The notes: generated by a model not told the origin, from the sequence alone. A stretch of 32,172 nt of DNA from Treponema sp. (GCA_009781635.1 WQXU01000027.1:1-32172), one strand, 5' to 3'; positions 4,609-24,112 are shown, numbered from the stretch's first letter. Translations and numbers: made by a program.

Positions 4609-5908
4609 GATACATAATAACCTGAAAAAATTAATAAAGTCGATACTTTATCCCAACAGGATCGAGATATTTGCCATTATTGTCCTTCTTGCTCTGATAA
4701 TAACTCCCATCACCGTAAACATGTATTCAAAAATGGATGCTAAAGCCAGACAGGTAAACCTGTACTTTTCTCCCTATGCAGAAAAATTGTTCGGCAGTAA
4801 TTTAATGGAAGAATTAATCAGGGAATTTGAAGAAAAAAATCCGGAAATAAAAATACAGCCGGCGGTTTTAACAGCGGATACTGAATCTTTGCCGGGCGCA
4901 AAAAAAGCAGGCGAAATTTCCGGCGTTGATATTCTTTTTTTTGATGACGATGATTTTGATATTTTTGCAGCAGCAGGTTTTTTAACAGAGTTAAGCTCCT
5001 TTACAAATTACGATTCCGGCACGCTGCAGCTTGCAATTCCTCTTGCTTCATTTATGGATATGCTCTTTTACAACATCAACATTCTGAATGCTGCCGGTTT
5101 TGATTCGCCGCCAAGGAGCAGAGACGAATTCCTTGCATACGCAAGAGCTGTTTCACGCGGTAATTTCGGCGCATACGGCGCAGCGCTGAGTTTATACCCC
5201 AATGACCGTCAGGCTCTGACGCGCGATGTTCTTGCATGGATATGGGCAAGCGGCGGAAATTTCTGGCCGGAAGAAGAAGGCCCGGTGTTAAATGCAAGAG
5301 CCGTTATAAACGACATCAATTTCCTGGGAACCTTAAACCGCGAAGGCCTGTTGGCGCCGGATGTATTTAATACGGCAGGGGATCAGCGTATTGAACAATT
5401 TGCAAGGGGAGAAATAGCGCTGATGATTGCGTCTACCAGGATCATTCCCTACCTAAGGCAGAGAATGGGAGACGAAGCATTTGGCATAACGGTCATTCCC
5501 GGTTCCGGCATGGGAGGAAAGTACAGTATTAATATTTCTGCGGTGTACGCCGGCATAAACGCAAACAGCGATCATCCCGATGAGGCGTGGAAATTTCTTG
5601 AGTTTCTTGCAGATAAAAGCCTTCTTCTTTGCGCGGAGTTAAAGGCAGTACCGGGCATGATATCCAATATTATTCCGGGTGATTATGTAAGGGATGATCC
5701 CTTCTATTCTAAAGCCTGGGATATATTTGAATCTGCTTTAATTGCCGAAAATTTTTCAGGGAAACCTGGCGCCGGACAATACGAAAGAATCTTTATGGAA
5801 GAAATTGAGATTCTTTTTAAAACCAGCCGTACAGCGCAGGATACTGTTCTTGCAATCCAGCGGCGCTGGGACAGAATCAAAATGGAATTATCGGCGGAGC
5901 TGCCTTAA
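4607..5908 (+). CDS. Extracellular solute-binding protein (family 1) with N-terminal membrane anchor, about 433 aa
   Basis: An N-terminal transmembrane helix (EIFAIIVLLALIITPITVNM) without a lipobox precedes a family 1 periplasmic binding protein fold: FSPYAEKLFG with LIREFEEKNPEIKIQ, GVDILFFDDDDFDIF, LFYNINILNAAGF, FARGEIALMIASTR, and HPDEAWKFLEFLADK near the C-terminus. The frame is open from an ATG at 4583. ATG 4607 is the better start because GGAG (4594-4597) sits 9 nt before it. The protein is probably a sugar-binding subunit tethered to the outer face of the inner membrane. No permease or ATPase lies beside it, so it is either an orphan that serves a remote transporter or a sensor. Its 5' end collides with the divergent TPR gene. 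Confidence 0.8.
   Translation: MIHNNLKKLIKSILYPNRIEIFAIIVLLALIITPITVNMYSKMDAKARQVNLYFSPYAEKLFGSNLMEELIREFEEKNPEIKIQPAVLTADTESLPGAKKAGEISGVDILFFDDDDFDIFAAAGFLTELSSFTNYDSGTLQLAIPLASFMDMLFYNINILNAAGFDSPPRSRDEFLAYARAVSRGNFGAYGAALSLYPNDRQALTRDVLAWIWASGGNFWPEEEGPVLNARAVINDINFLGTLNREGLLAPDVFNTAGDQRIEQFARGEIALMIASTRIIPYLRQRMGDEAFGITVIPGSGMGGKYSINISAVYAGINANSDHPDEAWKFLEFLADKSLLLCAELKAVPGMISNIIPGDYVRDDPFYSKAWDIFESALIAENFSGKPGAGQYERIFMEEIEILFKTSRTAQDTVLAIQRRWDRIKMELSAELP
4614..4643 (-). promoter_or_regulatory. Candidate promoter of the TPR gene, inside the divergent gene
   Basis: On the minus strand TCGACT (4643-4638) and TATTAT (4619-4614) are 18 nt apart, and the -10 ends 5 nt before the ATG at 4608. 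The site lies within the first codons of the divergent solute-binding protein gene. Transcription from it would give an essentially leaderless mRNA. The -35 is a 4/6 match, so confidence is modest. Confidence 0.35.
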
Positions 5909-8280: not shown

Positions 8281-8880
8281 ATGAAAAACATGCAAAAAGT
8301 ATTAGCTTTGGTACTTTGCGGAGCTCTTTGCGTTGTCATGATTTCATGCGCAACAGGCGGCGGCAGCGGCGAGTTTGGCCCGGGCGTTCTTGCGGTTGGC
8401 GAATGGAATGTCTATAACGACAGAACAAGTGACGGCGGTTCATCAATCTCTTATTTGAATATAATAGAAGAAGTTATTGATGGTCAGACAAAAAGCGTTA
8501 AACATGTTACCGGAGAAGTAACAGAACAATTCCGGTATGGTTTTGCCGGCTGGGGTCTTGATGCAGACGAAGCCACAACTGAGCTTTATAAAACAGCAAG
8601 AGCTCTTTCATTTACAATTCTCGGTGACGGAAAAAGATATTCACTCAAGTTCAAAATAAGCAGCGTTACAGATTATTGCTACCACGAATATGCCTTCCAG
8701 ACCGAAGAAGGCGTAGTGGAAACATTTGAAATACCCATGAGATTTTTAATGCAGCCAAGCTGGGGAAATCCTGCAAGATTAAATCAGTCACTGGTAACAG
8801 GCGTTGAATGGCAGACCCACGAGAGCTGGAGACCGGGTACATTCGATATCAAAATGTGGGACTTTAAGATTCATCAATAA
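8281..8880 (+). CDS. Lipoprotein with CIA30/CBM11-like galactose-binding fold, 199 aa
   Basis: The signal peptide (about residues 1-22) ends in VMISC, a relaxed spirochaetal lipobox, followed by a Gly/Ser linker. The mature part resembles the CIA30/CBM11-type beta-sandwich: FAGWGLDADEAT, ARALSFTILGDGKRYSLKFKI, YAFQTEEGVVETFEIPMRFLMQPSWG, and a closing FDIKMWDFKIHQ strand. Such domains bind beta-glucans or other sugars in some families, but binding here is inferred. The start is ATG with AAAAGGAG 5 nt upstream. It is the first gene after a strong promoter and precedes the GH5 gene by 115 bp with no terminator between. It may capture polysaccharide at the cell surface for the downstream enzymes. 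Confidence 0.7.
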   Translation: MKNMQKVLALVLCGALCVVMISCATGGGSGEFGPGVLAVGEWNVYNDRTSDGGSSISYLNIIEEVIDGQTKSVKHVTGEVTEQFRYGFAGWGLDADEATTELYKTARALSFTILGDGKRYSLKFKISSVTDYCYHEYAFQTEEGVVETFEIPMRFLMQPSWGNPARLNQSLVTGVEWQTHESWRPGTFDIKMWDFKIHQ

Positions 8881-8995: not shown

Positions 8996-10255
8996 TTGAT
9001 TAAAAGATCATTACTTTTCACGATTGTGATTTTCTCTCTCCTGCTGACCGCATGTGTCTCTTCTTCGGGAAAGCCTGCCGCTTATTATGTTCCGAGTGTT
9101 CCGGATGCAGTCCGTGAATATCCGCTGGAACCTGTAAGCGGCAAAACTGCATTTGAATATTTCAGAGACGAAAAAATTGTTGTTGGATGGAATCTGGGCA
9201 ATACCCTGGATTCCTACAGCAGCAACGGCAGTATTCCGGGCGAAACTACATGGGGTAATCCCCTGACCAATCAGGAAATCATGAACGGCATAAAAGCCGC
9301 AGGATTTGATATCATCCGCATTCCGGTGTCATGGATGAGTGATATCGGCAGCGCGCCGGATCATAAAATAAACATAAGGCGGCTTCAGCGTGTTGCAGAT
9401 GTTGTGGACATGGCGCATAAGGCCGGCTTAAAAGTAATTATCAATCTGCATCACGACGGTTCAACGCCTTCTCTGGGCAGGGAAGACGGATGGCTTTCAA
9501 TTACAAAGTCATACAGAAATGAGGCGGATTACAAAAGAATAACGCATCAATTTGCCCGGGTTTGGGATCAGATAGCGGCCTATTTTAAAAATTACGGCGA
9601 CTGGCTGATGTTCGAACCAATGAATGAGATTCATGACGGCGGCTGGGGTCACAGCGTAGAATTTAAAATGTTTGCGAACCGGCAGCTGGAAATAATAAAT
9701 AAATGGAATCAGGTTTTTACAGACAGAGTGCGCGCGGCAGGCGGCAATAATACAAACCGTTATCTGATTATCCCCGGTTACTGTACAATTCCTCAATATA
9801 CGCTGCCGGATGCTTTTAAGCTGCCGGATGATTCTGCTGCGGACAGGCTGGTTGTAAAATTTCATTACTACGATCCCCACGAATTCAGCATAAGGGGAAG
9901 CCGTTCTGCCTGGGGTACGCCTGCGGATATTCAAAAAATTGACAACGACTTTGCTCCTTTCAAGACTAACTATGTTGATAATAACATCCCGGTAATTATC
10001 GGGGAAACAGGCGCTGTCTTGCAGTTATTTCCAGATGATCCTGCAAGAGAAGCCCTGGCGCGTCAAAACAGGCGGGTATATTTTCAGCACATATATGCCG
10101 GTGCAAAAAGATACGGATTAATTCCGATTTACTGGGACAATGGTTCAACAATAGGCCCCGGAGAGAAATTTGGTTTGTTTGATCGCAGGACAGGCCAGCC
10201 GAATTCGCCGGAAAGCGAAGCTCTTATCAGAATAATAATGAATGCTATAAAATAA
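8996..10255 (+). CDS. Glycoside hydrolase family 5 lipoprotein (endo-beta-glycanase, subfamily 4-like), 419 aa
   Basis: A TTG start with GGGAG 9 nt upstream gives a classic lipoprotein signal peptide ending in LLLTAC (Cys20). The catalytic domain (about 50-415) carries GH5 hallmarks: GWNLGNTLDS (64-73), RIPVSW (108-113), INLHHDG (149-155), EPMNEIHD (207-214) with acid/base Glu211, HYYDPHEFS (290-298) and IIGETGA (334-340) with nucleophile Glu337. GWNLGNTLD with ETTWGNP points to subfamily 4, whose members cut cellulose, lichenan, xyloglucan or glucomannan. The exact substrate cannot be read from sequence. The enzyme is anchored outside the cytoplasm and feeds oligosaccharides to the importers encoded directly downstream. 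The GH130 gene at the end of the cluster favours a mannose-containing substrate. Confidence 0.88.
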   Translation: MIKRSLLFTIVIFSLLLTACVSSSGKPAAYYVPSVPDAVREYPLEPVSGKTAFEYFRDEKIVVGWNLGNTLDSYSSNGSIPGETTWGNPLTNQEIMNGIKAAGFDIIRIPVSWMSDIGSAPDHKINIRRLQRVADVVDMAHKAGLKVIINLHHDGSTPSLGREDGWLSITKSYRNEADYKRITHQFARVWDQIAAYFKNYGDWLMFEPMNEIHDGGWGHSVEFKMFANRQLEIINKWNQVFTDRVRAAGGNNTNRYLIIPGYCTIPQYTLPDAFKLPDDSAADRLVVKFHYYDPHEFSIRGSRSAWGTPADIQKIDNDFAPFKTNYVDNNIPVIIGETGAVLQLFPDDPAREALARQNRRVYFQHIYAGAKRYGLIPIYWDNGSTIGPGEKFGLFDRRTGQPNSPESEALIRIIMNAIK

Positions 10256-10282
10256 ATTTAACGAATAAAGGCTGTCAGGGAT

Positions 10283-13174
10283 ATGATTGAAAAAATTGCA
10301 AGATTTAAAGGTGTGATAATTGCCGCTGCTGTTATTATTCTCGTGGTGTTTATCGCTATACTGGCAAGGGGTCCGGATTTATATTTCTACGAAAAATACG
10401 CCGGCTTTGATCTGAGCGGAGCCAGTTCCGGAAGAACAAATCTTTATGCCCGGTACATGGAAAGGCTTGCCGGTGTTCCAAACGGGACACAGGATATCCC
10501 TGTTGATATTTTTACGTGGACTTCCGCCGAAGGTGTTTCTGTAACTGAAAATTTTGAAGGAGAAGCGCGGGTTCTTCACACAGAGGAAGTAAGTTTTGTA
10601 GAGTACATCGTCAATGTTGAACGGGCCGGGCTTTATAATATTCATATTGAGTATTTTCCGATCCATTCACGCGGCATACCAATGGAACGCGCCTTCTATA
10701 TAAACGGTGAAATTCCGTTTCTCGGCGCAGACAGGCTTATGTTCCAGCGTGTTTGGGGTGACGGCGGAAACAGGCGCTTTGATAACCAGGGAAACGAAAT
10801 ACGCGCGGCGCAGGTTGAAAGACCCCGCTGGGAATCCGCATGGTTCAGGGACTCGCTTGGCCGTACAACAGAGCCGTATGCTTTTTATTTTAATCAGGGC
10901 GAAAACACAATCAGGCTTAGAAGCATAAACGAACCTATGACAATTCGTTCGCTGGAATTAAGAGCGCCTTCCAGAATTATGAATTACAGCGAGTATGCTT
11001 CCGCAATAGATACAAGCCGTTTCAGAAACAGCCGCAGTAATTACCTTTTAAAAATTCAGGGTGAGGATGCTACAAGAAGATCCGATCCTTCCCTTTATCC
11101 AATTTACGATCGTTCTTCGGGAGCGACAGAACCTGCCAGTGTTGCGAGAATTCGCCTTAACATGATAGGCGGTCAAAGCTGGCGTGTGGCAGGGCAGTGG
11201 ATTGAATGGGAATTTAACGTACCGGAAGACGGAATGTACCGTATTTCGATTAAGGGCCGTCAGAATTATAACCGCGGCTTTGTTTCAAACAGGACAATTT
11301 TGGTAAACGGAGAGATTCCGGTTCAGGAACTTTCTGCTGTACCGTTCAGATATAGTAATAAATGGAATCTTACTACGCTTGGCAATGAACAGGGCGATTT
11401 CTTCTTCCCCATGAGAGCCGGCGCAAATACAATTCGTGTTCAGGCAACTCTTGGCGGTATGGGTGAAATGTTAAGTGTAATGGAAGAAAGTGTTTACAGA
11501 TTAAACTCCATCTACCGCAAGATACTTGTTCTTACAGGCCCGGATCCTGATATTTTCCGCGATTACCGCGTTGATATTGTCTATCCGGAAGTAATAGAAG
11601 CAATGGAGCTGGAAAGCAAAATCCTTTACAAACTGGTGGACGACTTAACCCGTTATACGGGTGAGCGCAGTCCGCAGGCTGCAGCTACGCTGACCCTTGC
11701 GCGGCAGTTGGAGCTCTTTGTAAGACGCCCGGACAGAATTCCAAGAATGCTTGTCAATTTTAAAGGCAACATCAGCTCGCTTGGCGACAGCTTGCTTGCG
11801 CTTTCCCAGTCGCAGCTTGATATCGATTATATTGTAGTTAGCGCAGAAGAAGCGCCTCTGCCGAAAATGAATGAAAATTTCTTTGTATCGGCATCGCATG
11901 AGATACGATCATTCTTTGTCTCTTTCTTTGTTGATTATGACAAGATCGGCGATACTTACCGCAAGGGTGATGATGTTGTCGAAGTCTGGATATTAACAGG
12001 ACGCGATCAAAGTACAATCCTTAAAACAATGATAGATGACACCTTTACTCCGCAGACGGGAATAAGGGTAAACGTCAAACTTGTCGCGCCGGAGACAGTT
12101 ATGCCTGCGGTTGTAGCAGGTACGGGGCCGGACATGGCGCTCACTGTTCCGCAGGTAGATCCTGTAAACTATGCAATCCGTAAAGCCGTTGTGGATATAT
12201 CACAGTTCCCCGGCTTTGATGATGTAATTAAAGAGCTGCATCCCAGTGTCATTGTTCCGTTCAAGTTTCAGGGCGGCGTGTACGGCCTGCCTGAAACGCA
12301 GTACTTCCATGTTATGTATTATAGAAAGGACGTCTTTGCCGATCTGGAACTTGAGATTCCCGATACATGGGACGACTTGATAAATATATTCCCGGTTATA
12401 CAAAAAAATAATATGCAGGTCGGTATTCCTTCAGTTGCAACTAACGAGCAGGCCCTTATCGACTTTTCAAACTTCCTTGCGCACCTGTTCCAGCGCGGCG
12501 GACGCTTATACAATGATGACGGCTCCCGCACTCTTTTGGACAGCGAAATTGCCATTGAGGCCTTTGATGTTTATACAAAGTTCTTTACGCATTATAAGGC
12601 GCCGGTTGTTTACAATTTTGTTAACCGCTTCCGCACAGGTGAGATGCCGCTTGCGTTCGCAGATTATACAAACTTTAATACACTTGAAGTATTTGCGCCG
12701 GAGCTTCGCGGTCTTTGGGGTTTTGCCAGAGTACCCGGTCTTAAAAGACCAGACGGCGTAATAGACCGTTCTGTTTCGACGGGAACTCTTGCTTCCATGA
12801 TTTTCTCCAATTCAAAACGTCCCGATTTGGCATGGGAGTTCATGAAGTGGTGGGTAAGCTCTGATACGCAGCTGCGGTTCGGACGTGAGCTTGAAAGTAT
12901 AATGGGCGCTGCAGCCCGCTATCCTACTGCAAATTATCAGGCATTCAGACAGCTTTCCTGGGGCTCCGAGCAAATGGCAGTTCTTGATGAACAGCGCTCC
13001 TGGGCAGTAGGCGTACCGGAAGTACCCGGCGGTTACTTTATCAGCCGCCATATTACAAACGCAGCGCGCCGCATATTAAACGAAGGCCAGGACACGCGCG
13101 AAACGCTGCTGGATTATACCATCGTAATCAACGATGAGTTAAAGAAAAAACGACAAGAATTTGGTCTGGAATAG
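10283..13174 (+). CDS. Giant membrane-anchored solute-binding protein with two sugar-binding-like domains, 963 aa
   Basis: A transmembrane helix (about residues 10-28, no lipobox) tethers the protein. Two beta-rich modules follow, about 75-230 and 250-400, each with CBM6-like signatures such as AGLYNIHIEYFPIHSRGIPMERAFYINGEIPF and QWIEWEFNVPEDGMYRISIK with FVSNRTILVNGEIP. A helical linker spans about 430-520. The C-terminal part (about 565-950) is a family 1 solute-binding protein (VVEVWILTGRDQSTILKTMIDD, GTGPDMALTVP, YGLPETQYFHVMYYRKDVF, DLAWEFMKWW). A normal sugar-binding subunit has about 420 residues, so this is a fusion. It sits 27 bp after GH5 and 8 bp before the first permease, and is probably the receptor of that importer. 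The added domains may hold polymer or long oligosaccharides near the transporter. Confidence 0.85.
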   Translation: MIEKIARFKGVIIAAAVIILVVFIAILARGPDLYFYEKYAGFDLSGASSGRTNLYARYMERLAGVPNGTQDIPVDIFTWTSAEGVSVTENFEGEARVLHTEEVSFVEYIVNVERAGLYNIHIEYFPIHSRGIPMERAFYINGEIPFLGADRLMFQRVWGDGGNRRFDNQGNEIRAAQVERPRWESAWFRDSLGRTTEPYAFYFNQGENTIRLRSINEPMTIRSLELRAPSRIMNYSEYASAIDTSRFRNSRSNYLLKIQGEDATRRSDPSLYPIYDRSSGATEPASVARIRLNMIGGQSWRVAGQWIEWEFNVPEDGMYRISIKGRQNYNRGFVSNRTILVNGEIPVQELSAVPFRYSNKWNLTTLGNEQGDFFFPMRAGANTIRVQATLGGMGEMLSVMEESVYRLNSIYRKILVLTGPDPDIFRDYRVDIVYPEVIEAMELESKILYKLVDDLTRYTGERSPQAAATLTLARQLELFVRRPDRIPRMLVNFKGNISSLGDSLLALSQSQLDIDYIVVSAEEAPLPKMNENFFVSASHEIRSFFVSFFVDYDKIGDTYRKGDDVVEVWILTGRDQSTILKTMIDDTFTPQTGIRVNVKLVAPETVMPAVVAGTGPDMALTVPQVDPVNYAIRKAVVDISQFPGFDDVIKELHPSVIVPFKFQGGVYGLPETQYFHVMYYRKDVFADLELEIPDTWDDLINIFPVIQKNNMQVGIPSVATNEQALIDFSNFLAHLFQRGGRLYNDDGSRTLLDSEIAIEAFDVYTKFFTHYKAPVVYNFVNRFRTGEMPLAFADYTNFNTLEVFAPELRGLWGFARVPGLKRPDGVIDRSVSTGTLASMIFSNSKRPDLAWEFMKWWVSSDTQLRFGRELESIMGAAARYPTANYQAFRQLSWGSEQMAVLDEQRSWAVGVPEVPGGYFISRHITNAARRILNEGQDTRETLLDYTIVINDELKKKRQEFGLE

Positions 13175-13182
13175 GGGGAAAG

Positions 13183-14115
13183 ATGAGTCTTGCCAGGTAC
13201 ATAAATAAAATAAAAGACAGGGATGAAAGCCGCGCCAGAGAAATATACAAACACAGAGTTTGCTATTTGTTTCTTGCGCCGTATGCAATTGTATTTTTTC
13301 TTTTCTTTGTTACTCCCGTCATAATATCGGTCTTCTTTAGTTTTACGTATTTTAATATTCTTGAGCCGCCAAGATTTATCGGCTTGCGGAATTATATCAA
13401 CCTGCTTTTGGCGGACGATGTATTTTTAATATCAATGAAAAATACATTTATAATGGCAGCAATTACAGGCCCGATTGGTTACATCATGGCGTTCCTGTTT
13501 GCGTGGTTTATAAATGAGCTGCCCAGATATATCCGCGCTCTCGTTACTTTGATTTTTTATGCTCCTGCAATTTCCGGCTCTGTTTTTATGATTTGGGCAT
13601 TAATATTCTCCGGCGATGCTCACGGTTACATTAACGGCACTTTAATGTTCTTCGGCATTCTGGATCAGCCTGTTCTCTGGCTGACGGATCCCAAGTATAT
13701 GATGCCGGTTATGCTGGTAGTCATTCTCTGGATGAGTTTGGGTGCAGGCTTCCTTGCATTCCTTGCAGGACTTTCTACAATAGACCCGACTCTTTATGAG
13801 GCCGGACTTGTAGACGGCATTTCCAACCGCTGGCAGGAGCTCTGGTATATCACGCTTCCGAATATGAAGGGGATGCTGATGTTCGGCGCAGTTATGGCAA
13901 TTACGCAGTCGTTTGGAGTCGCGGATGTCACAATTGCGCTTGCGGGGTTCCCGAGTACGGACTATGCGGTTCATACGGTTGTTAATCACCTGATTGACTA
14001 CGGTTCAGTCCGTTTTGAGATGGGGTATGCCTCAGCCATTGCTACAATATTATTTTTCACCATGATTATACTGAATTCGTTAATTCAGAAAATGCTCAGA
14101 CGGATAGGAACCTAA
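13183..14115 (+). CDS. Sugar ABC transporter permease, MalF/LplB type, 310 aa
   Basis: This is an inner-membrane subunit of a carbohydrate uptake ABC transporter (CUT1). About six hydrophobic helices are visible, starting near residue 28 (YLFLAPYAIVFFLFFVTPVI). The ATPase-contact EAA loop is YEAGLVDGISNRWQELWYITLPNM (residues 205-228). The start ATG follows GGGGGAAAG. It lies 8 bp after the giant solute-binding protein and 9 bp before the partner permease, and the two should form a heterodimer. No ATP-binding subunit is encoded in the window. Confidence 0.92.
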   Translation: MSLARYINKIKDRDESRAREIYKHRVCYLFLAPYAIVFFLFFVTPVIISVFFSFTYFNILEPPRFIGLRNYINLLLADDVFLISMKNTFIMAAITGPIGYIMAFLFAWFINELPRYIRALVTLIFYAPAISGSVFMIWALIFSGDAHGYINGTLMFFGILDQPVLWLTDPKYMMPVMLVVILWMSLGAGFLAFLAGLSTIDPTLYEAGLVDGISNRWQELWYITLPNMKGMLMFGAVMAITQSFGVADVTIALAGFPSTDYAVHTVVNHLIDYGSVRFEMGYASAIATILFFTMIILNSLIQKMLRRIGT

Positions 14116-14124
14116 GGGGTAGTT

Positions 14125-14994
14125 ATGAAAAAAATAAAAAAATTAATAGGCGGCAAGAGACTCAATCGTTCGTACGGCGGCGATGCGTTTATTATTTCGA
14201 TACTCACTGTTTTTGGTTTGTTCTTTGTGTTCCCGCTTGTTTTTTCCATAAACCATGCTTTTAAACCCTTAAACGAAATCTTCCTTTTTCCGCCCAATGT
14301 TTTTGTGAAACGCCCGACAATAAATAATTTTCAGGATATGTTCATTCTTATGGGTCAGTCCTGGGTTACTTTTTCCCGCTATATTTTTAACACAGTATTC
14401 ATTACTGCTGTTGGAACAGCCGGATTAATCGTTGTAGCCAGCATGGGCGCATTTGTAGTTTCCAAATACAATTTCCCCGGCTCCAAAGTTTTCTTTAAAG
14501 GCGTAATTATAACCCTTATGTTCTCCGGTTATGTCACAATGATTCCCAACTATTTAGTTATGGCTCAATTGGGTTGGGTCGATACTTACTTATCCATAAT
14601 TGTTCCGGCGTTTGCCATGCCTATAGGTTTCTTCCTGCTAAAACAATTTATAGACACCATACCTGATACGCTCCTTGAGGCGGCAAAGGTAGACGGCGCC
14701 AAAGAGTTTCGTATCTTTATATGGATCATCCTGCCGATGATAAAACCGGCATGGCTTACTGTAATGATCTTCTCTGTTCAGAACCTCTGGAATGCAAGAG
14801 CTTCCATATTTATCTATTCTGAACAATTAAAAACGCTGCCCTATGCGCTTGGGCAGATAATAATGGGCGGTATTGCGCGCGCCGGTGTAGGAGCTGCAGT
14901 CACGCTCTTTTTAATGGTTGTTCCTCTTGTACTGTTTATTTTTGCGCAGAGCAATATCTTGCAGACAATGGCAAATTCGGGGATAAAAGAATGA
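14125..14994 (+). CDS. Sugar ABC transporter permease, MalG/LplC type, 289 aa
   Basis: This is the second CUT1 permease of the first importer. Hydrophobic segments run from about residue 22, and the EAA loop reads LLEAAKVDGAKEFRIFIWIILP (183-204). AAGGGG upstream sets the ATG start. Its TGA stop overlaps the ATG of the next gene (ATGA), a sign of translational coupling with the NHL-propeller protein. This ties that protein physically or functionally to the importer. Confidence 0.92.
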   Translation: MKKIKKLIGGKRLNRSYGGDAFIISILTVFGLFFVFPLVFSINHAFKPLNEIFLFPPNVFVKRPTINNFQDMFILMGQSWVTFSRYIFNTVFITAVGTAGLIVVASMGAFVVSKYNFPGSKVFFKGVIITLMFSGYVTMIPNYLVMAQLGWVDTYLSIIVPAFAMPIGFFLLKQFIDTIPDTLLEAAKVDGAKEFRIFIWIILPMIKPAWLTVMIFSVQNLWNARASIFIYSEQLKTLPYALGQIIMGGIARAGVGAAVTLFLMVVPLVLFIFAQSNILQTMANSGIKE

Positions 14995-16454
14995 GAAATA
15001 ATATCGAACTTGGCTTACGCCGTTTTATCTTGTTATTCATAATATGTTTTTTTGCGGCTGCGCCGGTTTTCAGCGCGCCTACAAATTATACTTACAATTA
15101 CGACTTCTGGCGCGAGCAGGTCGCTTCCCCGGATGCCTACCGGGTTGGGGCTTATATTCTTGGCACAACTTTGGGTATCGGGAACTTCAGGGATCCTCAG
15201 GGATTATATATCCGTGAAAACCGCATTTACATCTGCGACTCCGGCAATAACCGGATAATTAAAGTTGAAGTGCAGGAGAACGGCGAGCATGTTGTGACCG
15301 ACGTAGTCACTCATGTTATGATCGACGGTGAAAGCTCGGCGCTTAATTATCCCATGGATATTTTTGAAAACAGAAACGGGAATCTTTACATTGCCGATAC
15401 AAACAATCAGCGCGTGCTGGTTCTTGATAACGACTGGAATTATATCCATGCAATTTTTAAACCGGACGATGAAAGCCTTGGGGATTTTTTGGAATTCCTT
15501 CCTTCAAAACTGGTTGTAGATTTTGCAAACCGCGTTTTTGTTCAGGCGCGTAACGTCAACAAGGGATTGATGGAATTTGACAACCGCTGGGAATTTTCCG
15601 GTTATATGGGCGCAAACAGGGTAAGCGTAAGTATAGCCGACTATATATGGAAACTTCTTTCCACGCAGGCGCAGAGAGAGAGGATGGATCTTTTTATTCC
15701 GACTGAATACAGCAATGTCGCCCTTGATAGTGACGGATTTGTCTATGTTACAAATGCTTCCGGCCAGACAGATCCTATCCGCCGGCTGAATGCAGTGGGA
15801 CAGGATATTTTAATCCGTAATGGTTATGAAGAACCCGTCGGCGATTTGGTTTTCGGAAACGCCGCCGGTATAATGGGCCGTTCCCGTTTTATTGATGTTG
15901 TTTCCTTTGATAATGATTCATATGCATGTTTTGACAGAACGCGCGGCCGTATTTTCATGTACGATTTCCAGGGCAATTTATTATACGCCTTCGGCGGCGT
16001 TGGCAACCGCGAGGGATCGTTTATACAGCCTGTGGCGCTTGATAGAATGGGTTACTCCCTGTACGCGCTGGACTCAAGAACAGGCGCGCTTACACGTTTT
16101 GATCTTACAGGATACGGAGTGATGATAAACAGAGCATTAAACGAATACAGGGCCGGACGTTACGAGTCATCTGCGGATGTATGGGAAGAAGTGTTAAAGA
16201 TGAACGGAAATTACGATCTTGCATATATCGGCATTGGCCGGGCAGCGCTCAGACAGGGCGATTATCAGAAAGCAATGAGATACTACAGTTTAAAACACCA
16301 CCGTGAAGGCTATGGAAAGGCATTCCAGTTATACCGCAAACAATGGACAGAAGAAAATCTGTGGTGGATGCTGCTGGTGCTGGGACTTATAATCTTCCTG
16401 CCTATGGCCGTGAAATTTTCCATTAAAACAGTCAAGGAGATTATAGAAGCATGA
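14991..16454 (+). CDS. Secreted NHL-propeller/TPR protein with C-terminal membrane anchor, 487 aa
   Basis: A signal peptide (about 1-28, ending AAPVFSA) is followed by a six-bladed beta-propeller of NHL type (about 45-370). Its repeats include FRDPQGLYIRENRIYICDSGNNRIIKV, NYPMDIFENRNGNLYIADTNNQRVLVLD and SFIQPVALDRMGYSLYALDSRTGALTRFD. A short TPR pair lies at about 380-440 (ALNEYRAGRYESSADVWEEVLKMN, AYIGIGRAALRQGDYQKAMRYY). A transmembrane helix near 455-475 (WWMLLVLGLIIFLPMAVKF) and a short charged tail end the protein. It is thus a periplasmic domain facing outward, anchored by its C-terminus. NHL propellers bind proteins, RNA or ligands; the role here is not known. It overlaps the permease before it and the YIP1 gene after it by 4 nt each. 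Confidence 0.75.
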   Translation: MRNNIELGLRRFILLFIICFFAAAPVFSAPTNYTYNYDFWREQVASPDAYRVGAYILGTTLGIGNFRDPQGLYIRENRIYICDSGNNRIIKVEVQENGEHVVTDVVTHVMIDGESSALNYPMDIFENRNGNLYIADTNNQRVLVLDNDWNYIHAIFKPDDESLGDFLEFLPSKLVVDFANRVFVQARNVNKGLMEFDNRWEFSGYMGANRVSVSIADYIWKLLSTQAQRERMDLFIPTEYSNVALDSDGFVYVTNASGQTDPIRRLNAVGQDILIRNGYEEPVGDLVFGNAAGIMGRSRFIDVVSFDNDSYACFDRTRGRIFMYDFQGNLLYAFGGVGNREGSFIQPVALDRMGYSLYALDSRTGALTRFDLTGYGVMINRALNEYRAGRYESSADVWEEVLKMNGNYDLAYIGIGRAALRQGDYQKAMRYYSLKHHREGYGKAFQLYRKQWTEENLWWMLLVLGLIIFLPMAVKFSIKTVKEIIEA

Positions 16455-17107
16455 GATACCTTATGGAAAAAGCCTGGTGGGAACGCCTTGGCATAACGCT
16501 TAAATATTCTCTTTATGTAATTACACATCCGCTTGACGGTTTTTGGGATTTAACGCATGAAAAACGCGGATCCATGGGAGCTGCCAATGTAATTATCAGC
16601 CTTGCTGTTATAGTGGAAGTATTACGCATGACATTAACGAATTTCCAGTTTGTTACGGTCAATATGGAATATTTTAATTCGCTTATTGTAGCAATGCGCA
16701 TTCTTCTGCCTGTCGGATTGTGGACAGTTGCAAACTGGAGTCTTACAACCTTAATGGACGGCAAGGGAAGAATGCACGAGATATATATGTCCGTCTGTTA
16801 TGCGCTAACTCCCTACGTGATTATAAACGCCGTCATGATTTTAATCAGCCAGTTTATCACTTTTGATGAAGGCGCAATTTACTGGGTGCTTGCCGGGTTT
16901 GCGGCAGTCTGGACAGGCTTGCTTCTGCTTTCTGCGATGATGATGGTACATGATTACAGCCTGCTAAAAACACTGTTTTCCAGTATTTTAACGGTGATTG
17001 GGATGGGCGTAATGGTATTTATCTTTGTAATATTTTTCAGCCTTATAAGCGATGCTATTGCCTACTTTGTATCGTTGTATAAAGAATTAATGTTCCGGTT
17101 GATATAG
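16451..17107 (+). CDS. YIP1-family integral membrane protein, 218 aa
   Basis: The pattern matches bacterial YIP1-family proteins: an N-terminal hydrophilic stretch (LDGFWDLTHEKRGSMGAANVIISLAVIVEVLRM) followed by about five membrane helices, with the polar segment TTLMDGKGRMHEIYMSVCYALTPYVIINAVMILIS between helices. That segment (a Gly-Lys-Gly, then YALTPY) is characteristic of the family. No biochemical role is established for bacterial members. The ATG at 16451 overlaps the previous TGA stop (ATGA), and AAGGAG (16434-16439) lies upstream. Its position between an NHL protein and a DUF5696 lipoprotein suggests a membrane partner for the importer, but this is inference from gene order. Confidence 0.75.
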   Translation: MRYLMEKAWWERLGITLKYSLYVITHPLDGFWDLTHEKRGSMGAANVIISLAVIVEVLRMTLTNFQFVTVNMEYFNSLIVAMRILLPVGLWTVANWSLTTLMDGKGRMHEIYMSVCYALTPYVIINAVMILISQFITFDEGAIYWVLAGFAAVWTGLLLLSAMMMVHDYSLLKTLFSSILTVIGMGVMVFIFVIFFSLISDAIAYFVSLYKELMFRLI

Positions 17108-17115
17108 GGGGTCAG

Positions 17116-19659
17116 GTGAAAAAACTTACATGGCTAGTTATAGCGATCATCTCGGTATTCATGGTTGTTTCATGTACTGCAAGGACAGCAAGACCAAAGC
17201 CGGTGATGATATATGAATATCTTGATGAGGTTAGTGAAAATATCGTTCTGGAAAATGAATATCTGCACCTTCTTTTTATACCCGAAACTGCGGAAATAAT
17301 TCTTACGGATAAATCCAATGGCGTGCAGTGGCGTTCAAATCCTCCCGATCCTGAAGGTGATCAGCTCGCTGATGTTATTACTACGCAGCTGATGGAATCG
17401 CAGTTTGCGCTGGATTATGCAGATAATTCCGGCGTTGGAATGACACTGCAATCCGGTATTTACAGTGTACATCGCGGAGCTTATGAATTTAGTGTTAATG
17501 ACGGTGTTCTGGAAGTAAATTATACGGTAGGCGATGAACGCTATTTCCGCATTCCGCCTGCTCTATCCGAAGAAAGAATGGCGCTCTTCATGGATCGCAT
17601 GGAGTGGGAAGACCTTGGCATGATCGAAATGACATACCGTCTTTACGACATTAACAATCTGCGTTTGAGCGATGACAGAACGCAGCTTCTTAATGACTTC
17701 CCCGATCTTGCAAGAATAAAGTTATGGGTGCTTAGAACAGGCTCTCCTGACTACCTGAAGGAAATCGCAGAAGAAAGTTTTAAAAATGCAGGTTACACAG
17801 TAGATGATTATATAGAAGATTCAATGCGTTATGAATTGATGGGTGAAACAGTTAAACCGGCGTTCAGTTTAACCCTGCGTTATTATCTTGACGGCAGATC
17901 GCTTATGGTTAATGTGCCTTTTGACAATATCGGTTACCGCCCTGCATATCCAATTACGCAATTAACGGTTTTACCTTTTATGGGTTCCGGTAATATGCAG
18001 GACAGCGGGTACATGCTGGTACCGGATGGAAGCGGCGCGCTTATTAATTTTAACAACGGAAAGCACAGTCAGGTTCCCTACAGCATAAGAGTATACGGAT
18101 GGGATGAAGCAATGCCGCGTGAGGCTGTAATAAGCGATAACAAGGCTTTGTTCCCGGCATTCGGCATTTATAAAAACGGCGCATCGCTGTTTTGCGTAAT
18201 AGAAGAAGGTTCGGCATATGCAAATGTCCGCGCGGATGTAGCCGGCAGGAATGCGTCATGGAACAGGGTATATCCTGTTTTTGATATGGTTCACGGCGCA
18301 TTAATGGACATTGCAGGACGCAGTCAGCGGGCAGTATATCTTTATGAAGCCGCCCTTCCTCCGGGTGAAAATATCACCCTGCGTTACACGCCATGCGCGC
18401 CCGGCTATGTGGGTATGGCGGAGGAATACCGCTCATGGTTAACTGATAATTATCCAATACTTAAAAACAGGCGCGTATCCGGCGGTACTCCAATAGCGGT
18501 GGAAATAATCGGCGCTGTCAATAAAACACAGCACCGTCTTGGCCTTCCCATGGATCTGCCTTTAAAGCTTACCTCCTACAAAGAAACCGAAAACATGATA
18601 AATGATTTTGCGGGTTTTGGATGGAAAAACTTACATATCAAATTAAACGGCTGGTTTAACCGGAGCGTTGATCATACAGTACCTACAAAAATAAAACTTG
18701 TTAATCAGCTTGGCAGAAAAAGAGACTTTGTGAATATTGTTAATACCGCCGGAAAAAATAACTATGAATTATATCCGGAAGTAGATTTTGTCTTTATGAG
18801 GGATGTTGGTTTATTCAGCGGGTTTAACCTTTACAGGGATGCAGCCCGTTTTGTAAACCGCGAACGTGTACAGCGCTTTCCATATAGTTTTATCTGGTTC
18901 GGAGAGCGTAAACAGTGGGGTAAAATAAATTATCTTGCGCGTCCTGCCGTTACAGAAAAAATGATAGACGGGTTTATGCCGAAGGCTAAAAGTTACGGAA
19001 TAACAAATATTGCATTCAGAAATATGGGTTCCAGGCTTGCCGGCGATTATCACGAAAGACGGCATCTGAGCCGCGAATCAAGCATGAGACTGAGGCAGCA
19101 GCAATTTGAAAAAATGAATCAGGCGGGAACAGGAATGCTTATGCATACCGGTTTTGTTTATTCTGTTCCGTGGGCTTCGATTATTACAGACATGATTTTG
19201 GAAGATCAGGGGTTTGGAATTACAGACTCATCCGTACCCTTCCTGCAAATTGCATTGCGGGGAATGGTGCCGTATACCGGAAGAGCCATAAACCTTGCGG
19301 AAGACTATACAAAGAATCTGTTAAGATCAATTGAAAGCGGAGCCGGACTGTACTTCAGTTTTATGACGGAGGAAACGGCGGTACTGCAGGAAACAAAGTT
19401 CAGGCAATTTTATGCCAATGAATACAGCAAATGGGTTAGAGATGCAGATGCGCTTTACAGGCAGTTTAATGCTGATTTCGGAAATCTGTACAGCCAAAGA
19501 ATTATTAACCATGAAATATTGTCACAGAGCGTAACAGTCACTGAATACGAAGACAGAACAAGAGTTGTTGTTAATGCCAGCGACAACGATTATGATTTTG
19601 GCGGCATCAATATAAAAGCGGACAGTTACATTGTACTCAGGCATGGAATGCAGAGGTAG
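17116..19659 (+). CDS. DUF5696-type lipoprotein, glycoside-hydrolase-like architecture, 847 aa
   Basis: A GTG start with AGGGGGTCAGG upstream gives a signal peptide ending MVVSC (Cys20). The N-terminal half (about 35-440) is beta-rich and reads like the super-sandwich of large glycosidases (IILTDKSNGVQWRSNPPDP, MLVPDGSGALINFNNGK). Residues about 455-760 alternate strands and helices as in a TIM barrel: PIAVEIIGAV, WKNLHIKLNGWF, NYELYPEVDFVFMRD, RFPYSFIWFGERKQ, ITNIAFRNMGS. The last 50 residues form a small beta-domain (SVTVTEYEDRTRVVVNASDNDYDF). I assign DUF5696 from memory of this pattern. Acidic residues such as Glu555, Asp557 and Asp563 could be catalytic, but none is proven. It lies between the two importers and is probably an extracytoplasmic glycan-processing enzyme. 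Confidence 0.65.
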   Translation: MKKLTWLVIAIISVFMVVSCTARTARPKPVMIYEYLDEVSENIVLENEYLHLLFIPETAEIILTDKSNGVQWRSNPPDPEGDQLADVITTQLMESQFALDYADNSGVGMTLQSGIYSVHRGAYEFSVNDGVLEVNYTVGDERYFRIPPALSEERMALFMDRMEWEDLGMIEMTYRLYDINNLRLSDDRTQLLNDFPDLARIKLWVLRTGSPDYLKEIAEESFKNAGYTVDDYIEDSMRYELMGETVKPAFSLTLRYYLDGRSLMVNVPFDNIGYRPAYPITQLTVLPFMGSGNMQDSGYMLVPDGSGALINFNNGKHSQVPYSIRVYGWDEAMPREAVISDNKALFPAFGIYKNGASLFCVIEEGSAYANVRADVAGRNASWNRVYPVFDMVHGALMDIAGRSQRAVYLYEAALPPGENITLRYTPCAPGYVGMAEEYRSWLTDNYPILKNRRVSGGTPIAVEIIGAVNKTQHRLGLPMDLPLKLTSYKETENMINDFAGFGWKNLHIKLNGWFNRSVDHTVPTKIKLVNQLGRKRDFVNIVNTAGKNNYELYPEVDFVFMRDVGLFSGFNLYRDAARFVNRERVQRFPYSFIWFGERKQWGKINYLARPAVTEKMIDGFMPKAKSYGITNIAFRNMGSRLAGDYHERRHLSRESSMRLRQQQFEKMNQAGTGMLMHTGFVYSVPWASIITDMILEDQGFGITDSSVPFLQIALRGMVPYTGRAINLAEDYTKNLLRSIESGAGLYFSFMTEETAVLQETKFRQFYANEYSKWVRDADALYRQFNADFGNLYSQRIINHEILSQSVTVTEYEDRTRVVVNASDNDYDFGGINIKADSYIVLRHGMQR

Positions 19660-19667
19660 GGGGAATA

Positions 19668-20594
19668 ATGTATTTTATCAAAAAAAATAATAAGTATTCA
19701 TTAACACTGGAAGGCAAAAATGCTGTTACGGGGTATTTATTTTTACTTCCGTTCATTATCGGGTTTTTGGCTTTTATGTTTTATCCCATTGTGGAATCCC
19801 TGCAGATGGTATTCAGCGATGTAAAAATCGATACCGAAAATTACGGGTTTACAATGGATTTTGTCGGAATAGAAAACCTAAGGCGCGTTGTTGCGGTAGA
19901 CCCGGAGTTTAACAGATTCCTTGCCGAGGAAATCGCGCGCATGGTGCTGATTGTTCCTGCAATTATTATTTTCAGTTTGTTTGTCGCTCTTATTTTAAAT
20001 CAGGAATTTAAAGCCAGGGGCTTTGTACGCGCCATTTTCTTTTTACCGGTAATTCTTTCATCCGGCGTTATGATTGGCCTTGAAACCAACAATTCGCTTT
20101 TGAACAGTATGGCGGAGATTATTAAGGAAAGCAATTTGATGAAGTCTTCCGTTACCAAGGTACTGGAAGACATTCTTGTTGCAGAAGGCGCGGCAAGCGA
20201 TTTTATGGGTTACATCTTTGCAATCATTAATCAGATTTATGACATAGCAATGGCTTCCGGCATACAGATAATCATCTTCCTTTCTGCGCTTCAGACAATT
20301 CCGCCGAGCATGTTTGAAGCTGCAAAAATTGAAGGCGCTACAGCATGGGAATGCTTCTGGAAAATAACATTCCCGATGGTTAGTTCATTAATTCTTGTGA
20401 ATATTGTTTACAGCGTTGTTGATTACTTTATAAGAACGGATAACCGCGTTATGGCAAAAATAAATTTTACAACATTAAGAATGTTAAATTTCAGTTTTGG
20501 AACAGCAATGGCATGGGTTTACTTCCTTGCCGTTATTTCCATTATCGGCATTGCAATGGCAATAATTTCCAAGAGGGTATATTACTATGAGTGA
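19668..20594 (+). CDS. Sugar ABC transporter permease of the second importer, 308 aa
   Basis: This is a CUT1-type inner-membrane subunit. The first helix is YLFLLPFIIGFLAFMFYPIV (23-42). The EAA loop is MFEAAKIEGATAWECFWKITFP (215-236). Compared with typical MalF-like permeases it carries an extra polar segment of about 50 residues (about 140-190, with SNLMKSSVTKVLEDILVAEGAAS) between two helices. AGGGGG lies before the ATG. Its stop overlaps the next permease by 8 nt. Confidence 0.9.
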   Translation: MYFIKKNNKYSLTLEGKNAVTGYLFLLPFIIGFLAFMFYPIVESLQMVFSDVKIDTENYGFTMDFVGIENLRRVVAVDPEFNRFLAEEIARMVLIVPAIIIFSLFVALILNQEFKARGFVRAIFFLPVILSSGVMIGLETNNSLLNSMAEIIKESNLMKSSVTKVLEDILVAEGAASDFMGYIFAIINQIYDIAMASGIQIIIFLSALQTIPPSMFEAAKIEGATAWECFWKITFPMVSSLILVNIVYSVVDYFIRTDNRVMAKINFTTLRMLNFSFGTAMAWVYFLAVISIIGIAMAIISKRVYYYE

Positions 20595-21603
20595 TGATAT
20601 TTATACTGACAAAGAACGAACGGCAAATTGGGGAAATATTTCCCGTCACTATCATAAAAAGAAAAAAGCACTGGAAATTACGTATAAAATTTGCCGCGCT
20701 ATTTTGCTTTTCGGATTATGCTTTTTAATTATTCAGCCCTTATTGGACAAGTTAAGCGTAAGTTTTATGGCCGAGCAGGATCTGTATGACAGCACAGTAA
20801 TCAGTATTCCGCGTAATTTTACAACAGGGAATTACAGGATTGCCGCCCATTTAATCAATTATTGGGCAGCGCTGTTTGAAACCTTTTTTATAGTAACGAT
20901 CAGCGCGGTTCTGCAGATTGCCGCCTGTACTCTTGCGGCTTACGGTTTTGCGCGTTATAAATTTCCGCTTAAAAATTTCTGGTTTTTCTGCGTAATGCTT
21001 ATGATTGTTATTCCTCCCCATACCATTATGGCTTCGCTGTATCTTAACTTCCACTTTTTCGATATATTCGGCATTTTCCGTCTTATTACGGGAGAACCGG
21101 TTAACTTACTAAACAGCGTATACGGCTTCTGGCTGTTATCTGCAACAGGCATGGGTTTAAAGAGCGGTTTATATATCTTCATGTTAAGGCAGTATTTCAG
21201 GGGTATGCCGAAAGAACTTGAAGAGGCTGCATGGGTAGACGGATGCGGTAAATTTAAAACATTTATCAGAATCATGCTTCCCGATGCAAGTCCGATGCTT
21301 ACATCCTGTTTTCTGTTCTCCTTTGTATGGCAGTGGACGGATTCCTTCTATACAACGCTGTTCCTTACAAACTACAGAATGCTTTCCAGCGGTTTAGGCT
21401 CAATTGCCGAGCGTGTTTCTCAGTGGTGGTCGGCAACCAATATTGTCTCTGGAGCGGCTGTGGCCTCTACGGCGCCGGTTGGTTATGTACAGGCAATGAT
21501 TGCTACGGGTATGCTTATGTGCCTTGCCCCGCTCATTATATTGTATTTGATAGCCCAAAAGGCATTCGTTGAATCATTGAGCCAGACCGGTATTAAGATG
21601 TAA
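20587..21603 (+). CDS. Sugar ABC transporter permease of the second importer, 338 aa
   Basis: This is the MalG-like partner of the previous gene. A hydrophilic N-terminal extension of about 30 residues precedes the first helix (AILLFGLCFLIIQPLL). The EAA loop is LEEAAWVDGCGKFKTFIRIMLP (211-232). A long loop after MASLYLNF (149-156) and the extension account for its greater length. It overlaps the upstream permease by 8 nt, so the pair is translationally coupled. A 116-bp gap then separates it from its solute-binding protein. Confidence 0.92.
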   Translation: MSDDIYTDKERTANWGNISRHYHKKKKALEITYKICRAILLFGLCFLIIQPLLDKLSVSFMAEQDLYDSTVISIPRNFTTGNYRIAAHLINYWAALFETFFIVTISAVLQIAACTLAAYGFARYKFPLKNFWFFCVMLMIVIPPHTIMASLYLNFHFFDIFGIFRLITGEPVNLLNSVYGFWLLSATGMGLKSGLYIFMLRQYFRGMPKELEEAAWVDGCGKFKTFIRIMLPDASPMLTSCFLFSFVWQWTDSFYTTLFLTNYRMLSSGLGSIAERVSQWWSATNIVSGAAVASTAPVGYVQAMIATGMLMCLAPLIILYLIAQKAFVESLSQTGIKM

Positions 21604-21719
21604 TCTGAGCCGCTAAGGATTGTTTTATTAGTTAGCCCTTGCGGGTTATTGATGGTTTCAATGCGGAAGGCCGCGTTGCGGTTAAGCGCTTGAGATAAAT
21701 AAAATTTTGGAGGAAAGAA

Positions 21720-23111
21720 ATGACAAGAAAAAGTGTCATAATTGCTTGTATTGTACTTGCAGTTTTGTTCGTTAGCGTCGTATCAGTTTCTGCGATACCT
21801 GTTCCTAACGCTCCAAGCGGAGTCCGAAACACGCTTAGGGGAATGAACATTGTTCTTGGCAACTGGTGGTTTGATTATAACCCCGCAAGGTCACCGCCTA
21901 CAAATCAATGGGTAGGAAGTGATTATCAGGAAAGACAGCTTGATTACCGTAAAAGACTTTTGGCTCAATACAACTTCACCATGGTAGAAAGAAACATCGC
22001 CAGTTGGAACGAAATGGCCTCAGTTGCTGCCACCTCGATGATGGCAGGAAGACCCGCCGCTTCTGTTTTCCGCTTGCAGCCGGACTGGGCACTTGCATTG
22101 TACAGACAGAACCTTCTGTATCCTGTAAGCACCCGCAGATCTGTAAACTGGAATGCTACTACTCCTGTTGAATGGAACCAGATGGTTACACAGGCCTTTA
22201 CATTTGGCGGAAGAACATTCGCATTTGCCGATGATTACGGCTGGAGCCGCCACGCAGCTGTTGTATTCTTTAACAAGAGACTGTTCAGAGAAGCCGGACT
22301 CGATCCGGATCTGCCGTACAATGAGCAGAGAGCAGGCACATGGACATGGGAGAGATTCCTTGAAATCAGCAAACGTCTTACAAGAGACATTAACAACGAC
22401 GGCGTAATTGATATTTATGCAATGCCGGCGGATCTTTCAACGGAAATACTTGACGCCCTCGTTTCCAGTAACGGAGCCATGTATGTCGGAAGAGATGCAA
22501 GAGGCCGCCTCTTTAATGCAACAAATACACCAAACTTTATCGAAGCTGTTAACTTCTATATGAGACTAAGAGATGAAGGCATTATGAAGCCGAAACCGCC
22601 GGGAGACGGAACCCCCTGGAACTGGCATATTCCCGAATTTAATGACGGAAGAGTTGCAATGCGCATCGATCAGGACTATCTTGCAACAGGCGATCTCCGC
22701 AACATGAGAGATGACTGGGGAATGGTTCTTCCTCCCAAGGGCCCAAGAGCTCCGAACAACAACTATGTTGTATTTAACGATGAAAACGTAATGGTCATTC
22801 CTGCACGCGGATTTACAGATGCTCAGGTAGACGCGATTGTATGGGCAGTTCAGTCATGGGTAACCCCTGTTGATGCAAACTGGAGACTTCAGGAATATCC
22901 AAACTTCAGAGACAGAAGAGCTGTAGACGAAACATTCGCAATGATTCGTGACAGGAGACTGTGGCAGTGGAAATACCACCTGCATGTTCCTGGATTGCAG
23001 CGCGGTCATATTGCATGGCAGATCTGGGGTCATGACGGCGAACCGGCACAGTTGATTGAAGCAGTTTCACAAACATGGAACGCTTTAATTGCAGATGCTA
23101 ACAGCAACTAG
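21720..23111 (+). CDS. Secreted family 1 solute-binding protein of the second importer, 463 aa
   Basis: A cleavable signal peptide (cleavage near Ala25, VSVSA) and no lipobox suggest a free periplasmic protein. Binding-protein features include [43 protein letters not shown] and [16 protein letters not shown]. Residues 223-231 (DINNDGVID) look like a calcium-binding loop of the EF-hand type, a feature of several CUT1 binding proteins. Translation starts at ATG 21720 behind a very strong GGAGGAAAG site. That site and the 116-bp gap with small hairpins upstream probably raise expression above that of the permeases. The protein delivers oligosaccharide to the two permeases just upstream. Confidence 0.9.
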
Positions 23112-23119
23112 TTAATTAT

Positions 23120-24112
23120 ATGAGCAGTATCATCGTAAACGGAAACAGTTTGCCGAATATTCCATGGGAAGACAGGCCGCCGTCAAGCGATCCTAAAAAG
23201 GAGCTGATGTGGCGTTATTCGAAAAATCCGGTTATTCCCAGGGATTTAACTTTAAGATCCAACAGCATTTTTAACAGCGCTGTTGTTCCTTTTAAAGATG
23301 GATTTGCAGGCGTTTTCCGCTGCGATGATACGGCCCGTCACATGGACATAAATGCGGGGAGAAGTAAAGACGGAATCAATTGGGAGATTTCTGATGAACC
23401 CATAAAGTTTATCAAAACAGATCCTGAATTGCCGGATTCTGATTATAAATACGATCCCCGCGTCATTTTTATTGAAGACCGGTATTACATTATTTGGTGT
23501 AACGGTTATCATGGGCCGTGCCTTGGTTTGGGTTACACTTACGATTTTGAAAAGTTTTACCAGATGGAAAACGCAATGATGCCCTTTAACCGCAACGGCG
23601 CGCTTTTCCCCCGAAAAATCGGAAAAAATTATGCAATGTACAGCCGCCCCAGCGATTCAGGGCATACTCCCTTCGGCGATATGGTTTATTCAGAAAGTCC
23701 GGATATGGTTTATTGGGGAAAGCACCGGCATGTTATGGCGCCGTGCGGAGGCTGGCAGAGTACAAAAATAGGCGCAGGTCCCTGTCCTATAGAAACTACT
23801 GAAGGCTGGCTTGTGTTTTATCACGGCGTACTGACAAGCTGTAACGGATTTGTCTATTCATTCAGCGCTGCATTAATGGATCTTGATAAACCCTGGAAAG
23901 TGATTGCGCGCGCACGCCCCTATATAATTAACCCGCGGGAAATATATGAGCTTGCAGGCGATGTTCCAAATGTTACTTTCCCTGTTGCCGCGCTTGTTGA
24001 CAAAGACACAGACAGAATTGCCATTTATTACGGATGCGCAGATACTGTGACAGGCCTTGTCTTTGGTAAAGCAGGCGAGATTGTAAGCTGGGTAAAAGAA
24101 AACAGGTTATAA
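23120..24112 (+). CDS. GH130 family beta-mannoside phosphorylase, 330 aa
   Basis: There is no signal peptide, so the protein is cytoplasmic. It shows the GH130 five-bladed propeller pattern: [12 protein letters not shown] (30-41), [10 protein letters not shown] (49-58), [10 protein letters not shown] (61-70), YDPRV (111-115) with candidate catalytic Asp112, [24 protein letters not shown], and [11 protein letters not shown] followed by VFYHGV. The Lys and His in the last two motifs match residues that bind phosphate in phosphorylases of the family. The likely reaction is phosphorolysis of beta-linked manno- or manno-gluco-oligosaccharides to mannose 1-phosphate. The exact linkage (beta-1,4 is favoured by the GH5 gene) is uncertain. 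It is 8 bp after the solute-binding protein, with no clear Shine-Dalgarno sequence, so it may depend on coupling. It abuts ffh tail to tail. Confidence 0.85.

Follow-up and report, generated by a model that had tools for sequence, protein, structure and literature searches.

The eight core genes within positions 10283-23111 of a 32,172-nucleotide stretch of Treponema sp. DNA (GCA_009781635.1 WQXU01000027.1:1-32172; the window) encode what we read, with a probability of about 0.6, as a conserved chassis for the uptake of oligosaccharides from plant hemicellulose. The core comprises a fused solute-binding protein (SBPfus), a first pair of CUT1 permeases (P1a and P1b), a protein combining an NHL β-propeller with TPR repeats (NHL/TPR), a YIP1-family membrane protein, a DUF5696 lipoprotein and a second permease pair (P2a and P2b), in this order; a ninth gene encodes a second, exported solute-binding protein (SBP2), the variable member of the cassette. 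The permeases and binding proteins are of the CUT1 kind; what is new is the presence of three extra proteins and the doubling of the permeases. The flanking enzymes differ between loci, which suggests a chassis fitted with substrate-specific enzymes and its own SBP2. That the eight core proteins belong to one functional unit is almost certain; that they assemble into one physical complex is slightly better than an even bet.

Part of the evidence comes from gene order. A genome collection scanned with P1a alone yielded at least 579 relatives, and in the best 80 of these loci the core is collinear without a single violation (66 complete, 14 ending at contig edges). The hosts span two phyla and include Lachnospiraceae, Paenibacillus, Thermobacillus, Gracilibacillus, Halalkalibacter, Epulonipiscium, Acholeplasmataceae, Christensenellaceae, Defluviitaleaceae and Treponema. 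With no exception to the order in 80 other loci, the arrangement is far from chance. It is identical in 20 same-genus and same-order loci, most with GH130, many with GH5 and some with two SBP2 genes. An earlier note on this DNA had proposed that the NHL, YIP1 and DUF5696 proteins are part of the uptake apparatus. Strong homologues of all three occur in an identical set of genomes (11 of 296 in the phylum of the window), in the same stretch of each, and nowhere else among the 296. Related genomes in which these genes are parted from the importers, the outcome that the note named as refuting it, were looked for both from P1a and from the extra proteins, and the proposal passed this test. YIP1 matches in five further genomes of the 296 are weak (E 1e-7 to 1e-10) and look like ordinary Yip1 proteins, and weak PF18952 matches in other spirochaetes (18-27 bits, mostly at profile positions about 270-410) were left out of the DUF5696 count. 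The whole cassette can be absent from related genomes; it is thus an optional module, gained or lost whole.

Two of the extra proteins are also linked through gene structure. NHL/TPR (14991-16454) has a signal peptide and a C-terminal membrane helix (transmembrane segments 12-30 and 460-478; Pfam NHL, TPR), so its propeller and TPR repeats should be extracytoplasmic. The adjacent YIP1 protein (16451-17107), with about five membrane helices by hydropathy, belongs to the Yip1 family (PF04893; Pfam 4e-10, 40.2 bits against a cut-off of 28.6) and is the single Yip1 above the cut-off in its genome; the family profile had no match among solved structures by sequence. In at least four loci (L032 from Paenibacillus cellulosilyticus, L052, L129 and G311) the two genes are joined into a single reading frame, and such a fusion is direct evidence that NHL/TPR and YIP1 work together. 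Pairwise distances of the eight core proteins over 86 loci are correlated throughout (r 0.78-0.97), most highly among SBPfus, NHL and DUF5696 (0.96-0.97), with P2a and P2b forming a pair of their own (0.93). Fixed synteny, three-way co-occurrence, the NHL-YIP1 fusion and correlated divergence together give strong support to the view of the earlier note that the three extra proteins are parts of the apparatus; its suggestion of glycan processing is weakened here by DUF5696, a GH129-type fold from which the carboxylates have been lost, and its further proposals, that the assembly may gate uptake and may pass long oligosaccharides to two importers, are conjectures.

Are both importers functional? 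BPD_transp_1 is found in all four permeases: P1a (13183-14115), P1b (14125-14994), P2b (20587-21603; Pfam 7e-12) and, at E=0.0016 only and under the Pfam cut-off, P2a (19668-20594), which is a clear UgpA match in NCBIfam (7e-11). The EAA loop is intact in all four, with its E and G kept in 66-81 homologues each (alignments of 81 sequences for P1a, 80 for P1b, 69 for P2a and 66 for P2b); thus, both pairs should bind an ATPase, and two working importers are plausible on the strength of these motifs. No ATPase gene lies within the cassette; a UgpC-like open reading frame (ORF; 52% identity) is present outside it, on contig C12 of the same genome, making available a MalK/UgpC-type ATPase that may serve these permeases, and in P. 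cellulosilyticus ugpC is the gene immediately upstream of the cassette. One such ATPase, shared and encoded outside the cassette, would drive both pairs.

Each pair also has a binding protein of the SBP_bac_1 type that characterizes CUT1 systems. SBPfus (10283-13174) consists of a membrane helix (residues 10-28), two β-sandwich CBM-like domains, a helical linker and, at 561-963, a CUT1-type binding domain, as seen by Pfam, AlphaFold (pLDDT 91.1), Foldseek, VIA and transmembrane prediction. SBP_bac_1 matches residues 579-863 (E 9e-22), after a weak CBM_35 match, and the binding domain resembles oligosaccharide-binding proteins (Z about 38; Foldseek, VIA). The fold search was filled by matches to this domain, and the naming of the N-terminal domains rests on weak Pfam matches (Golvesin_C 18/30, CBM_35 10/30), with CBM_6 similarity also weak; matches of the linker to designed coiled coils in the PDB were dismissed as generic helix similarity. 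SBP2 (21720-23111; SBP_bac_1, 3e-9) has as its nearest solved relative an arabino-oligosaccharide-binding protein (6rjy, 5e-12).

These data could also describe an operon for polysaccharide utilization in which two independent CUT1 importers and accessory proteins share no more than their regulation, with no joint machine. Clustering of importers with carbohydrate-active enzymes (CAZymes) is ordinary in Bacillota and Spirochaetota, the flanks here are CAZymes, and both permease pairs come with a dedicated binding protein and with their EAA loops intact. But if co-regulation were all, why would the internal order be invariant in two phyla even as the flanking enzymes vary, and why would NHL, YIP1 and DUF5696 co-occur so strictly, the first two even fusing? 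Co-regulation alone leaves both unexplained and is somewhat unlikely.

What does DUF5696 do in an importer? The protein (17116-19659; Pfam 4e-173) is a lipoprotein, and nearly all of its relatives have a membrane anchor or lipobox. Its AlphaFold model (pLDDT 91.0, pTM 0.88) is closest to GH129 glycosidases, NagBb (5wzp, Z 30.8 over 564 residues, rmsd 3.9) and ZgGH129 (5opq, Z 30.2) by VIA, followed by α-amylases and GH101 at Z about 20; a profile (HMM) search likewise retrieved ZgGH129 (1e-11) and NagBb (1e-6). The GH129 Pfam model, PF11308, matched none of 57 DUF5696 proteins at E <= 0.01 and nothing in the genome of the window at E <= 1e-10. When L167, a GH129 protein, is aligned with the window protein, the D and E of the GH129 motifs CDATGE and GSEGGN fall at columns 636 and 677, and we take this D and E to be the nucleophile and the acid/base, as in NagBb (D435, E478); the title of a ZgGH129 structure entry, which names D486N, also served for this assignment. 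The protein encoded here has N636 and H677 and thus lacks the putative catalytic carboxylates; orthologues from the same genus carry N, S or T at 636.

The alternative, in which DUF5696 is an active GH129-type α-glycosidase that removes alpha-linked side groups (galactose, arabinose, glucuronate) at the membrane ahead of uptake, draws on the GH129-like fold, on significant sequence similarity to enzymes that act on α-links and on homologues that keep the catalytic positions: among 106, both carboxylates are present in 19 and the first only, as D, in 48 (the nucleophile position being kept in 67/106). Set against this are the substituted residues in the window and its genus and the retention of the protein in cassettes in which both carboxylates are gone (32/106), and an active enzyme is, on this mapping, decidedly improbable. 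Loss of catalysis by the DUF5696 of this window is likely, as judged from its aligned residues; since the cassette retains the protein where cutting is improbable and the carboxylates are lost, glycan binding would be the likelier function. A third proposal, that NHL/TPR-YIP1 and DUF5696 make up a sugar receptor signalling to a regulator, so that the importers are linked through control and not transport, could point to Butyrivibrio, where genes for a histidine kinase and a response regulator lie upstream, and to AraC and LacI regulators in some flanks, but is very improbable, as no such regulator lies directly beside the cassette in the window and Pfam finds no kinase or signalling domain in its proteins.

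The substrate is suggested by the neighbours. Upstream lies a GH5 endo-glycanase with a lipoprotein signal (8996-10255; Pfam Cellulase 1e-48, lipobox LLTAC), whose nearest solved relatives are GH5_4-type endoglucanases and xyloglucanases (6wqy, 3e-74; the xyloglucanase 2jep, 1e-60). Downstream is GH130 (23120-24112; Pfam 1e-65), a β-1,4-mannooligosaccharide phosphorylase assigned to the cytoplasm, with neither a signal nor a transmembrane segment predicted and the mannooligosaccharide phosphorylase UhgbMP (4udg, 2e-147) as its closest solved relative. Importer and glycan-specific enzymes thus stand in one unit, as in a hemicellulose utilization locus, and because the neighbours are GH5 and GH130 the substrate here is probably (gluco)mannan; that it is of a mannan type can be held with good confidence. 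Other loci flank the cassette with GH26, GH43, GH10, GH30, GH130 or CBM65, mostly hemicellulose-type, mannan or xylan enzymes. On a plasmid of P. cellulosilyticus (L032, 4311-27010), the cassette has as its neighbours several LLM-class flavin oxidoreductases and two additional solute-binding proteins; because these replace glycosidases, its substrate may be other than hemicellulose.

The chassis reading can be put together as a pathway, each step of which is a proposal. Surface GH5 would cut the (gluco)mannan polymer outside the cell; membrane-tethered SBPfus, with its CBM-like and binding domains, would capture fragments and supply the P1 pair; SBP2 would supply the P2 pair; NHL/TPR-YIP1 would be the scaffold tying the permeases to the extracytoplasmic parts; DUF5696, here a putative pseudo-glycosidase, would hold the glycan chain at the membrane; the shared ATPase would energize both pairs; and GH130 would phosphorolyse imported mannooligosaccharides in the cytoplasm. 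A bolder version, in which NHL/TPR-YIP1 bridges the two importers into a supercomplex while SBPfus and the pseudo-GH129 hold a long oligosaccharide passed between the permease pairs, is unlikely; if true, it would allow ABC import of longer or branched glycans than one importer takes.

Several considerations weigh against the chassis reading. The putative machine is known from composition, order, co-occurrence, fusion, predicted folds and hydropathy topology alone; a co-inherited operon by itself is expected to yield much of the correlated divergence; the 80 loci are the best-scoring P1a relatives, and distant exceptions would escape notice; in one of them, L154, YIP1 and DUF5696 are separated by two extra ORFs; the mapping of DUF5696 catalytic positions depends on an alignment at ~12% identity and on the residues taken as catalytic in GH129; and the substrate is deduced from neighbouring genes alone.

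How does the cassette compare with known systems? With the CUT1 ABC importers (MalEFGK, MsmEFGK, UgpBAEC) it shares SBP_bac_1 proteins, BPD_transp_1 pairs with EAA loops and a shared ATPase encoded elsewhere; unlike them, it places two permease pairs in one operon, fuses a binding protein to CBM-like domains and a membrane anchor, and adds obligatory NHL/TPR, YIP1 and DUF5696 proteins. DUF5696 is similar to the GH129 glycosidases (the α-N-acetylgalactosaminidase NagBb and the 3,6-anhydro-D-galactosidase ZgGH129) over the whole protein fold (Z about 30), with weak but significant sequence similarity; it differs in that its catalytic positions usually do not both hold carboxylates, in its membrane anchor and in its fixed place within an importer operon. 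Gram-positive-type polysaccharide utilization loci for mannan (GH26/GH130) and xylan (GH10/GH43) carry the same flanking enzymes, including the GH130 found here; their accessible publications name ordinary importers and leave the cassette unmentioned. The Sphingomonas alginate ABC importer is likewise fitted with extra parts for long glycans, but it has one permease pair and unrelated accessory proteins; long-chain import by the cassette is conjectural. No paper naming DUF5696 was found in the open literature (a scope that leaves out most subscription papers and all preprints), nor was a description of the cassette found there in work on YIP1, NHL with ABC importers, four-permease importers or Paenibacillus and Butyrivibrio loci.

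The cassette is common among bacteria that subsist on plant fibre in gut, rumen and soil, and three of its eight proteins are without an assigned role. Should these prove to be importer subunits, a large part of the machine is missing from models of how Lachnospiraceae, Paenibacillus and Treponema take up oligosaccharides. DUF5696, for its part, gains a fold and a testable role, as a relative of glycosidases that seemingly turned into a glycan holder in some lineages.

The compact layout of the genes is as the earlier note described it: nine ORFs, all on the + strand, at the positions it gave, with overlaps, gaps and family names confirmed by coordinates, Pfam and NCBIfam. Overlaps measure 4 nt (P1b/NHL), 4 nt (NHL/YIP1) and 8 nt (P2a/P2b), and intergenic gaps 8, 9, 8 and 8 nt, with a single larger gap, 116 nt, 5' of SBP2. 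GH5 and GH130, also on the + strand, end 27 nt upstream of SBPfus and start 8 nt downstream of SBP2, respectively; thus, the transcription unit likely spans 8996-24112, wider than the 10283-23111 of the earlier note. Promoter and terminator scans gave site numbers no higher than in shuffled sequence and were not used. Just 5' of GH5, at 8281-8880, lies a lipoprotein-like gene with a CIA30 domain, probably a carbohydrate-binding β-sandwich, which may belong to the unit of the cassette.

A few loci depart from the common picture. The two ORFs inserted in L154 (14038-16089), ~330 aa each, are the sole intra-core insertion among the 80 loci. In a divergent cassette (G323:C1:1017252-1022945), the NHL match, ~1.3 kb away from YIP1, includes a stop (TAA); this may be a decayed or rearranged copy. 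One spirochaete genome (G003) has four DUF5696 genes, on contigs C106, C144, C148 and C188, which suggests several copies of the cassette, one of them divergent (448 bits). Elsewhere in the window, a third, unrelated solute-binding protein gene without permeases (4583-5905) is divergent from a TPR gene (2812-4608) whose 5' end overlaps it and whose product is 598 aa long, and an MmeI-like restriction-modification protein begins at 31310-32170 and runs past the end of the window.

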